Origin: an uncultured Clostridia bacterium
Lineage (GTDB): Bacteria > Bacillota > Clostridia > Christensenellales > UBA1242
Direction of reading: 5' to 3'
NCBI GenBank assembly: GCA_930990515.1
Contig: CAKNPS010000002.1
Span: 124,001-188,000, forward strand
Length of the DNA stretch: 64,000 nt
The first letter of the stretch is position 1; each line of letters starts with the position of its first letter. The translations under genes were made by a program, and so were the position numbers. The notes beneath the pieces were generated by a model that ran no database searches, was not told the origin of the DNA, and worked only from the letters and a program-made list of their open reading frames with translations. This document shows positions 60,258 to 64,000 of this stretch, in pieces.

Positions 60258-60334
60258 GGGGGTGTGGCTCAGTTGGCTAGAGCATCTGCCTTGCAAGCAG
60301 AGGGTCAGCGGTTCGAATCCGCTCATCTCCACCA
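60258..60334 (+). tRNA. tRNA-Ala (anticodon TGC), CCA encoded
   Basis: GGGGGTGTGGCTCAG...CTGCCTTGCAAGCAG...GGTTCGAATCC...CATCTCCACCA. Confidence 0.96.
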
Positions 60335-60418: not shown

Positions 60419-60619
60419 TTATTTGCAAAAATTGTTGCAACCGCAGTTAGAGAGTAATAAAAGTAATAAGATTGTTCCACAGTCAATGTTAATTCCTTTC
60501 ATACCGCAACCGCCACAGCAGTTTAAAAGTAAGATTAAGAAAATAAGTGAGCAGCAATCATTACCGCAACCGCAATCTCTACCTACATCGCCACAACCTG
60601 AGCCTCCAAAAAAGTTCAT
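60419..60619 (-). CDS. Cys/Gly-rich hydrophobic small protein (66 aa, 12 Cys)
   Basis: Minus-strand AGGAGG RBS before ATG; MNFFGGSGCGDVGRDCGCGNDCCSLIFLILLLNCCGGCG...DCGTILLLLLLSNCGCNNFCK. Confidence 0.75.
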   Translation of the reverse strand: MNFFGGSGCGDVGRDCGCGNDCCSLIFLILLLNCCGGCGMKGINIDCGTILLLLLLSNCGCNNFCK

Positions 60620-61466: not shown

Positions 61467-61501
61467 TTAAAAGCAAAGATATAATAGAACTAACAAATCA
61501 T

Positions 61502-61532
61502 AAAATCACACGAATCGTGTGGTTTTATTTTT
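61502..61532 (+). terminator. Rho-independent terminator
   Basis: AAATCACACGAATCGTGTGGTTTTATTTTT. Confidence 0.8.
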
Positions 61533-61682: not shown

Positions 61683-62501
61683 GTGGAAGAGATTATCAAG
61701 TTTTCAGGGACAAATGAAAAACTTTTTACTCGTGATGTTGTGGAAAATGTGACTGAAAAAACAACGTTGATTGTTCCAGAAACACATAGTGCCATAATTA
61801 TTTCTGACGGGGAAATGCTCCAAACTCTTCCTAAAGGAAGATATCTTCTTCGCAATCTTGTGGAAGTGAAGAAAAATGAAAAATTGTCACTCGAAATTAT
61901 TTTTGTGAGTAAGACCGCCAAACTTAAACTTCTTTGGGGAACGCCTAACAAAATTACAATTGAGGACCCAGTTTTGAATTTGCCATATAAAATGGGAATG
62001 AGTGGCGATTTTGAAGTTCAAGTCAGTGACCCTAGAAAATGTTTCTTATATCTTGTTGGAGCAGAAGATGTTTTGACAAGTGACGCACTTCAAGACAGAC
62101 TTATGAGCAAAGTGGTTTCCGTTGTGGAAACAGAACTTGCACATTTTATTGCAGAGAAAAAGGTTTTATATTCAAATGTTTATCAATATAAGCAAGAGAT
62201 TGCAAGAAGAATAGTCCCAATTCTTTCAAATTCCTTCTCTTCAAGTTATGGCATAACGGTTTATTCCTTGAATATTGCAAATATTATTTTTGATGAAGAT
62301 GACTTAGACAAGTTGAACAAGAAAAATAATGTCACAGTCAAAAAAGCATTATGTCCCGTTTGTAACACAGAACTTGAGCCAAATGCTAAATTTTGCTTTA
62401 ATTGCGGTGCAAAAATAAGTAATAAAAAAACTTGCCCAAAATGCGGGGCAGAAAATTCAGGAGAAGCAAGATTTTGCAGTATGTGCGGAGAGAAATTTTA
62501 A
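61683..62501 (+). CDS. SPFH-domain protein with C-terminal double zinc ribbon (YdjI/virion-core-like)
   Basis: VPETHSAIIISDGEMLQTLPKGRYLLRN; C-terminal CPVCNTELEPNAKFCFNCGAKI and CPKCGAENSGEARFCSMCGEKF; GTG start after AAGGGGG. Confidence 0.8.
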   Translation: MEEIIKFSGTNEKLFTRDVVENVTEKTTLIVPETHSAIIISDGEMLQTLPKGRYLLRNLVEVKKNEKLSLEIIFVSKTAKLKLLWGTPNKITIEDPVLNLPYKMGMSGDFEVQVSDPRKCFLYLVGAEDVLTSDALQDRLMSKVVSVVETELAHFIAEKKVLYSNVYQYKQEIARRIVPILSNSFSSSYGITVYSLNIANIIFDEDDLDKLNKKNNVTVKKALCPVCNTELEPNAKFCFNCGAKISNKKTCPKCGAENSGEARFCSMCGEKF

Positions 62502-62510
62502 GGAGGAGTT

Positions 62511-62933
62511 ATGGTTGCATTTTATATCATTGTTTGCGTTGCGGTTGTGGCAGTTTCCATTTATTTTCTTATTCGTGAAATAAGAGCATCTAAAAATGGT
62601 AATACAGAAACAAGTGGAAAAGAAAAAGGAAAGCCAGCAGTTTTAATCAATAAAAGACAAATCGAACGCTCAGTGCAAAACATTGAAAGTATGATTGTTC
62701 TTGCTGACGGAAATGACACTTTGACAAATAAACTTGTTGAACTTAAGGACGAAATTCGTTTTCTTAATCCTTCCAAAAATCACAAAGTGAAAGATATTGA
62801 TGAAAAAATTGCAAACAAACTTGACGACATAAAAATTGAAATCTCAAAAGATGTAAATTCGGAAGTTATTTTCAGAATGATTGAAGAAGTGGAAGGCTTT
62901 TTGGCACAACGCACAAAGGAAATGGAAGCGTAA
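62511..62933 (+). CDS. Single-TM coiled-coil protein
   Basis: RBS AAGGAGG; VAFYIIVCVAVVAVSIYFLI TM plus helical domain. Confidence 0.75.
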   Translation: MVAFYIIVCVAVVAVSIYFLIREIRASKNGNTETSGKEKGKPAVLINKRQIERSVQNIESMIVLADGNDTLTNKLVELKDEIRFLNPSKNHKVKDIDEKIANKLDDIKIEISKDVNSEVIFRMIEEVEGFLAQRTKEMEA

Positions 62934-63280
62934 TGAAAAGAGAGTTAAAAGTAAGTGATGGTGTTCCTGAAAGTGCTTTGAAGGAATTGAAACTTGGCTA
63001 CATCAATTTGGCGGACGGCTTTTTTGACCTAGCACAAACAAATTTTGATTTGGTAATATTGTCCGATCCTAAATGTGCTGATGCTTTTTGGGGATTGATG
63101 CTTTGCAAGTGCCATATTAGAAATGAAGATGTTTTGCTTACGAATGCCACGCTTTATAAAAATATCGTTTTTTTGAAAGAATATCAAAATGCACTAATAT
63201 ATGCAGATGACGACCAAAAAGCAATTTACAACACTTTGCTTTCCGAAATTATGAAAATAAATTCGGGCGATGAATACTAA
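62933..63280 (+). CDS. TPR-like helical protein
   Basis: ATG overlaps stop of upstream gene (TAATG); LGYINLADGFFDLAQTNFDLVILSDPKCADAFWGLMLCKCH. Confidence 0.7.
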   Translation: MKRELKVSDGVPESALKELKLGYINLADGFFDLAQTNFDLVILSDPKCADAFWGLMLCKCHIRNEDVLLTNATLYKNIVFLKEYQNALIYADDDQKAIYNTLLSEIMKINSGDEY

Positions 63281-63291
63281 TAGGAGGGGTT

Positions 63292-63903
63292 ATGTGGTGG
63301 CCTTTTAAAAGAAATAAATTTAAGAAAATTCAACGAGAAGATTTAGTCAACTCCATTTGCGAGTTGGAACGACAAGAACGCACAGTGGAAGCGGAAATTT
63401 TTCAACTGCAAAAAGAAATTGATATGCTTATGGATAAGGGGAAAAAGGAAAAGACAGAAGAACTCAAACTTTTCTATGCTAAAAAAATCAACCACTTGAA
63501 AGAGCAGAAAGCAAATACAATGCAAAAAGGTATGTATCTTTTGTATAACATTCGTTTGATGAACAAATTGAAAGAAGCATACGATAGCAATGCATTCTAC
63601 AAAACAAAAACAAAAGTCCCACTTTCCGAACTTCTTGCCGACCAAAAAGGACTTGCCAAGTTTTTGAATAAGGCTCTTGAAACCCGCATTGCTTCTGAAG
63701 ATGTTTTGACAAGTGCTGACGATCTATTCACTGAAATTCAAGGTGCTTATGACACAAATGAAGCAATTTATGGAATGAAAAAAGATGATGAAGACCTTTT
63801 AACAAATTTTGAAAAGGAACAACAAATTTTGGACGAGCAATCTCTTTACGAAGAGTCGCAAGTAAATAAAACAAAAAAGAAAAAAATGAAAATGGAGGAA
63901 TAA
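63292..63903 (+). CDS. Coiled-coil protein with PspA/Snf7 (ESCRT-III-like) layout
   Basis: Basic N-terminal MWWPFKRNKFKK, long helices (VNSICELERQERTVEAEIFQLQKEIDMLMDKGKKEKTEELKLFYAKKINHLKEQKANTMQKGMYLLYNIRLMNKL), acidic C-terminus. Confidence 0.6.
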   Translation: MWWPFKRNKFKKIQREDLVNSICELERQERTVEAEIFQLQKEIDMLMDKGKKEKTEELKLFYAKKINHLKEQKANTMQKGMYLLYNIRLMNKLKEAYDSNAFYKTKTKVPLSELLADQKGLAKFLNKALETRIASEDVLTSADDLFTEIQGAYDTNEAIYGMKKDDEDLLTNFEKEQQILDEQSLYEESQVNKTKKKKMKMEE

Positions 63904-63906
63904 AAA

Positions 63907-64000
63907 ATGGCTTGGTTTAAAAGTAAAAAACAAAAAGAAATTGAACAAAAAATGCTTGTTAAAAGAACAATAAATTCAATGGAAAAGCAAATTGCTCGCC
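63907..64000 (+). CDS. Start of a second short coiled-coil protein of similar layout (truncated by window end)
   Basis: MAWFKSKKQKEIEQKMLVKRTINSMEKQIAR; ATG 3 nt after stop of preceding gene with GGAGG upstream. Confidence 0.6.
   Translation, partial: MAWFKSKKQKEIEQKMLVKRTINSMEKQIAR

Follow-up and report, generated by a model that had tools for sequence, protein, structure and literature searches.

A seven-gene operon of gut Clostridia predicted to encode an ESCRT-III/Vps4-like membrane system

Gene content of the operon

The window, a stretch of 64,000 nucleotides from an uncultured Clostridia bacterium, ends inside an operon of seven genes (A to G), all on one strand, which fills positions 61683-64000 and continues for 4.4 kb beyond the window end (Table 1). 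The host genome measures 1.18 Mb in 10 contigs and has a completeness rating of 100%. The first-pass annotation had described five tightly packed reading frames with one TAATG overlap, and all five are present, separated by 9 (A-B), -1 (B-C), 11 (C-D) and 3 nt (D-E). Extending the contig to the right, as had been proposed, completes E and adds F, which starts 15 nt after E, and G, which abuts F (gap of 0 nt). A terminator-like hairpin upstream of A parts the operon from an upstream lipoprotein-like gene. Further upstream lie a tRNA-Ala (60258-60334), about 1.3 kb from the operon, and a short Cys/Gly-rich reading frame on the minus strand (60419-60619); in locus L092 the antisense frame of a similar reading frame is found at the same place.

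Table 1. Features of the operon, in window positions; for genes F and G, positions in L002 are given (window position = L002 position + 60999).
Feature	Position	Strand	Length	Description
Terminator-like hairpin	61500-61528	+		T-run, 13 pairs; consensus scan
Gene A	61683-62501	+	272 aa	GTG start; SPFH (Band_7_1, PF13421) with C-terminal double zinc ribbon
Gene B	62511-62933	+	140 aa	N-terminal hydrophobic (TM) helix and helical coil
Gene C	62933-63280	+	115 aa	TPR-like; TAATG overlap with B
Gene D	63292-63903	+	203 aa	First ESCRT-III-like subunit (AlphaFold2 model, Foldseek, D-E profile match)
Gene E	63907-64503 (window holds 63907-64000)	+	198 aa	Second ESCRT-III-like subunit, Snf7 family
Gene F	L002:3520-4644 (beyond window)		374 aa	MIT-AAA ATPase, Vps4/CdvC type
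Gene G	L002:4645-8415 (beyond window)		1256 aa	Zinc-ribbon/TPR protein

The reading of A as an SPFH protein with a double zinc ribbon is borne out by Pfam (Band_7_1, 3.1e-14; DZR, 1.1e-10). Both parts expected of a YdjI-type SPFH protein, PF13421 and C-terminal zinc ribbons, are there, and A is a putative YdjI-like membrane recruiter. Gene B matches no Pfam family; its place between A and D is conserved, and in other families it is mostly shorter. Gene C had been called TPR-like, and rightly so, because C and the TPR part of G are homologues (matches from 9e-12 to 7e-07). The TPR of G itself is recognised by family search; G also carries a zinc ribbon.

Genes D and E and the ESCRT-III superfamily

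From size and charge layout alone, D and E had been proposed to be a tandem pair of ESCRT-III-superfamily proteins. Are they? The answer is firmer for E. The protein of the window genome scores only 8.3 bits against Snf7, below threshold, and has no meaningful single-sequence family match in Pfam or NCBIfam; since it misses the Pfam cut-off, its homology to Snf7 is shown through its relatives. Snf7 is matched at E<=1 by 13 of 29 members of the E family, the best being a homologue 41% identical to E (L027; PF03357, 2.8e-08, 34.1 bits against a curated cut-off of 27.3) which is itself retrieved at 4e-37 with the window E as query. Another homologue (L029) reaches 27.1 bits against the same cut-off. 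PspA_IM30 (PF04012), by comparison, gives nothing better than E 0.2, in 2 of the 29 members. Judged by these family profiles, E is Snf7-type and not PspA-type.

Structural comparison adds less. The AlphaFold model for E was made from a copy that is 96% identical (L075; pLDDT 72.9) and predicts helices at 7-48, 52-107, 112-151, 161-174 and 179-197, that is, a long alpha1-alpha2 hairpin (7-48/52-107) followed by alpha3-alpha5. Its top two Foldseek matches are CdvB of S. islandicus, with E-values of just 0.28-0.30, and the list also holds BAR-domain and ferritin structures; long helices look alike, so the fold search alone is weak evidence for E. Searches of E against PDB sequences, by phmmer and by profile, returned only noise.

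Gene D has a basic, Trp-containing N-terminus and the same kind of long alpha1-alpha2 hairpin, the only part of its AlphaFold2 model (pLDDT 66.4) that is confident (15-52/56-98). The top Foldseek match of this model is an archaeal CdvB2 filament (probability 0.99, TM 0.47/0.51, E 0.081), and by our own count 28 of the top 50 matches are ESCRT-III-superfamily chains, covering CdvB2, CdvB, Asgard ESCRT-IIIB, CHMP3, CHMP2A-CHMP3, CHMP1B/IST1, Snf7 and Vipp1. The fold check suggested in the first-pass annotation was thus met in that both models contain the hairpin and lead to Cdv proteins, with no E-value for either below 0.05. At the level of sequence there is little to add: none of 41 D members has a Snf7 or PspA match in Pfam, D of the window genome has none in Pfam or NCBIfam, and a D profile against PDB sequences found noise only. 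When profiles of D and E were compared, wider ones gave a weak, co-linear match (D 1-117 on E 1-112; P 3.8e-4, probability 36%) and narrow ones none. D is probably an ESCRT-III protein, an assignment which rests on its predicted fold and lacks a direct family match. The proposed pair is supported at the level of the sequence family for E and at fold level for D.

Several distant loci carry variants of these genes. In L061 (12506-14419), L062 (4359-6278) and L066 (10769-12670) an E-like ESCRT-III domain is fused to an FtsK/SpoIIIE DNA-translocase domain (PF01580, 1.6e-45 in L061) in proteins of about 640 aa, and all three loci also have E as a gene of its own, together with genes for an SPFH protein and a MIT-AAA protein. 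A gene for a Sel1-repeat/trypsin-like serine protease (domain calls made on L061) lies within divergent ESCRT-like loci at L061:10638-11816 and L070:15464-16558.

The ATPase and its co-occurrence with E

What follows E decides much of the interpretation. F matches Pfam AAA (3.4e-42) and the AAA lid, and its match to NCBIfam CdvC spans protein and model from end to end (1.4e-62; residues 6-361 on 6-366 of 370). Its single AAA cassette carries GPPGTGKT, IIFIDE, KWVGESE and RSGRF, and among 77 distinct F proteins GPPGTGKT is kept in 75, the KW[VFML]G pore loop in 57, PWxxD in 73 and the R-finger motif R[SP]GRF in all 77. Vps4_C falls short in F of the window genome (0.0021, 18.4 bits, cut-off 21.3). 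Among 23 F proteins 20 match it (best 3.7e-08), as many as have a Vps4-type cassette in the alignment; p97 D2 shares a Vps4_C-like helix at its C-terminus. The N-terminal MIT domain (PF04212) is recognised in 3 of 20 F-family N-termini (best 1.5e-06), and the N-terminus of the window F by itself gives no MIT match above the Pfam cut-off. When a profile of the MIT region was searched against the PDB, six Vps4 MIT chains were among 14 matches (E 0.13-3.5), with unrelated chains intermixed. In two PDB searches Vps4/CdvC query sequences served as bait only. Taken at the level of the family, this evidence gives F a predicted Vps4 architecture of MIT, one AAA cassette, Vps4_C and pore loop. In six loci (L114, L117, L119, L123, L128 and L136) F has an extra, unidentified C-terminal domain of about 100 aa (alignment columns 440-550).

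Does F descend from an archaeal Vps4? A site-heterogeneous tree of the AAA cassette, with reference sequences taken from PDB chains, replaces a FastTree tree with fewer references in which F was placed less clearly. All 27 F rows group together (97/98), and F, CdvC, haloarchaeal and eukaryotic Vps4, a Streptomyces TPR-AAA ATPase and a haloarchaeal ATPase are separated from CDC48 D2 (93/88), with an open fork. Outside the order, the Streptomyces TPR-AAA ATPase is the closest row (87/73). F lies inside no sampled Vps4 family, a clade uniting F with Vps4 cannot be rejected (p-AU 0.127), and the tree does not show that F arose within archaeal Vps4. Two haloarchaeal loci, used as tree references only, are plasmid regions in which Vps4-like ATPases lie beside unannotated small genes (L160:4284-6263 and L164:1352-4230), the L164 plasmid also having a kinase and a phosphatase nearby; they may be the Halo ESCRT systems described in PMC10936438.

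MIT and E occur together across genomes. A search of 396 genomes of the order with a MIT profile found MIT in 37 of the 40 genomes with E and in 0 of the 356 without it (Fisher p 6e-49, a value that overstates independence, given that these are related genomes and that the profile was built from these loci). Extra MIT copies on other contigs, seen in five genomes, again occur only where E is present. The motor behind the MIT domain is less constant. In the window genome MIT precedes a Vps4-type AAA, relatives have MIT followed by a SpoVK/CbbX-type and a Vps4-type AAA (about 690 aa), and L151, L153 and L154 have MIT with a SpoVK-type AAA alone. In L063 (8691-10886) and L068 (5791-8325) a MIT-like N-terminus, a weaker match, is followed by RuvB and TnsA-like endonuclease domains (Pfam calls made on L063), and these genes adjoin E-like genes. 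Going by domain matches, relatives keep the MIT domain while the AAA motor changes.

What could MIT bind? E proteins end in an amphipathic, MIM1-like helix, e.g. EDIDKEIEKLRKK, and an acidic-hydrophobic i, i+4, i+7 pattern with a basic residue is present in 33 of 86 E tails against 0.9 in shuffles. The canonical MIM1 Arg occurs in 1 of the 86. Binding of MIT to the E tail is an inference, with no binding data behind it.

Distribution, rival readings and proposed function

Of 396 sampled genomes of the order, 40 (about 10%) carry E, spread over 20 of 142 genera, in Christensenella-like gut MAGs of the Clostridia. Draws of genomes across the class and across the phylum contained E in 3 of 392 and 1 of 399, every one of these in the same order, and no sampled genome outside the order has the ESCRT-III/Vps4-like set. 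This sampling covered Bacillota relatives only, apart from a scan of 85,462 species genomes with a single conserved peptide pattern, which returned 96 relatives. Of these 80 were kept, all of them Clostridia/Bacillota metagenome assemblies; two are labelled only bacterium, and several bear the names Caccovivens, Coproplasma or Christensenella. Conservation of gene order, which the first-pass annotation had recommended checking, holds for most of the operon: among 73 loci whose E frame is clean, the neighbourhood of E includes D in 65, F in 69, A and G in 62 each, B in 53 and C, a gene of the closest relatives only, in 35. The recurrence of D, F, A and G near E means that the order is not due to chance; the median D-E gap across these loci is 3 nt, and many of the relatives are only 40-60% identical. 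Missing neighbours are probably due in part to contig ends, although this is inferred. The flanks are conserved within close relatives (an ABC transporter pair downstream, a small gene upstream), which argues for vertical inheritance there and led us to reject a mobile element as the explanation. In an empty-site comparison, the congeners that lack the system had different left flanks.

How does the operon compare with known systems? Like archaeal Cdv (CdvB/ESCRT-III with CdvC/Vps4), it places ESCRT-III-like subunits next to a MIT-AAA-Vps4_C ATPase, and the matches of F to CdvC and of the D and E models to CdvB2 and CdvB point the same way; unlike Cdv, it is bacterial, has SPFH, TM-coil, TPR and large zinc-ribbon partners and no recognised CdvA, its host has FtsZ, and F forms its own clade. 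With eukaryotic ESCRT-III/Vps4 it shares the Snf7 family, the MIT domain, the Vps4_C helix and a W-containing pore loop. However, F lacks the insertion that VPS4B and yeast Vps4 have between the small domain and the C-terminal helix, the canonical MIM1 Arg is not conserved, and no ESCRT-0/I/II or ubiquitin parts were recognised. The archaeal Meth_adaptin ESCRT (PMC10936438) also combines, in a single locus, ESCRT-III and Vps4 with an SPFH protein that has a coiled coil and a zinc ribbon, but it has adaptin-appendage and GOLD proteins, which were not recognised here. In the Ydj operon of B. subtilis an SPFH and zinc ribbon protein likewise accompanies an ESCRT-III-superfamily protein (PMC8581546, PMC11237479), and YdjI together with YdjG/H is needed for the membrane localisation of PspA (PMC8581546); that operon has one PspA where ours has two Snf7-like subunits and a MIT-AAA ATPase, and neither YdjG nor the TPM-domain YdjH was recognised here. 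Bacteria have been reported to be without a clear Vps4 homologue (PMC7615534). The nearest prior description of such loci is that of PMC11237479, which covers VPS4-like AAA ATPases in bacteria as well as PspA/Snf7-clade proteins beside other AAA+ ATPases. In its VPS4-like loci, however, snf7 is displaced by a TPR/6TM protein, whereas Snf7-family subunits are present here, and its ATPases beside PspA/Snf7 have two AAA domains, the first inactive, whereas F is a single-cassette MIT-AAA protein. No description of the operon itself was found in the open-access literature to August 2026 (subscription papers and preprints were outside the scope).

We read the operon, with a probability of roughly 0.78, as a bacterial ESCRT-III/Vps4-like system in which an SPFH-recruited polymer on the cytoplasmic membrane is remodelled by an ATPase. 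The first-pass annotation had proposed a module of SPFH and ESCRT-III-like proteins akin to the PspA/YdjF pairing; the module is supported, and the MIT-AAA ATPase that follows E just past the window end sets it closer to ESCRT-III/Vps4 than to PspA/YdjF. Could that ATPase still be a late, loosely coupled addition to a PspA/Ydj-type envelope-stress system, in which SPFH recruits PspA-like coiled coils and nothing is equivalent to Vps4? Gene A is YdjI-like with its SPFH and zinc ribbons, SPFH-PspA operons have been described (PMC11237479, PMC8581546), and the operon could replace PspA, as the host genome has none above cut-off. This remains unlikely, given that E matches Snf7 and not PspA, that the MIT-bearing ATPase occurs only where E does, and that no YdjG/YdjH-like partner is seen.

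It is harder still to credit a protein-quality or unfoldase system, with F a bacterial CDC48-like ATPase bearing a MIT/TPR-like adaptor domain, and D and E coiled-coil adaptors that form no membrane polymers. The homology of E to Snf7, the ESCRT-III folds matched by the D model and the presence of an SPFH protein and the TM-bearing B all speak against it, as does the grouping of F with Vps4 and not with CDC48 D2; on its side are the AAA cassette, which scores slightly higher against CDC48 (220 bits) than against CdvC (212 bits) in NCBIfam, and the position of the Streptomyces protein in the tree. A phage-defence or conflict system acting on the membrane during infection would suit the patchy occurrence within the order and the swapped modules of distant loci (SpoVK, RuvB-TnsA and the E-FtsK fusions), and PADLOC matches F to IetA at 2.3e-39. 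That match is likely general AAA similarity, support that goes no further; PADLOC found no defence genes among the other operon proteins tested, and the flanks are conserved across close relatives, unlike those of a mobile defence island. We regard this last reading as very doubtful and have set it aside.

How, then, might the ESCRT-III/Vps4-like system work? Gene order, conservation, domain content and the co-occurrence of MIT with E are observed. Polymerisation, membrane binding, recruitment, MIT-tail binding and the cellular role are inferred, without experiment. A, with the TM-anchored coil B, would mark or sense a site on the cytoplasmic membrane and recruit D and E, a step inferred by analogy with YdjI and PspA. 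D and E would co-polymerise on the membrane. The N-terminal MIT domain would attach the F ring to the amphipathic C-terminal tail of E, perhaps to that of D as well, and D/E subunits would be threaded through the pore of F, leading to a change in polymer composition and constriction, or to recycling; C and G, with their TPR and zinc ribbon, may serve as adaptors. ATP-driven membrane repair or remodelling under envelope stress is the most likely role, as an accessory and dispensable function, since the host genome has FtsZ and no PspA above cut-off, and 14 sampled congeners do without the system. Cell division as the main role is rejected on account of FtsZ and of these same congeners.

On a wider view, which we hold with some reserve but favour on balance, some bacteria own a complete ATP-driven ESCRT-III/Vps4 machine, in which tandem paralogues form composite polymers and MIT is a portable adaptor onto unrelated AAA motors, and which goes back either to an ancient branch within bacteria or to an old transfer out of archaea. 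Snf7 subunits together with a MIT-AAA ATPase in a bacterium would overturn published statements that bacteria lack the ESCRT core machinery, the filaments and motor with which archaeal and human cells cut and mend their membranes. If true, the bacterial machine could be used as a simplified stand-in for the eukaryotic ESCRT system, and the relatives, which exchange the ATPase and keep MIT unchanged, offer a natural experiment on what is demanded of the motor. The bacterial set would also allow the essential parts of the ESCRT cycle to be tested independently, and it would bear on the origin of the machinery.
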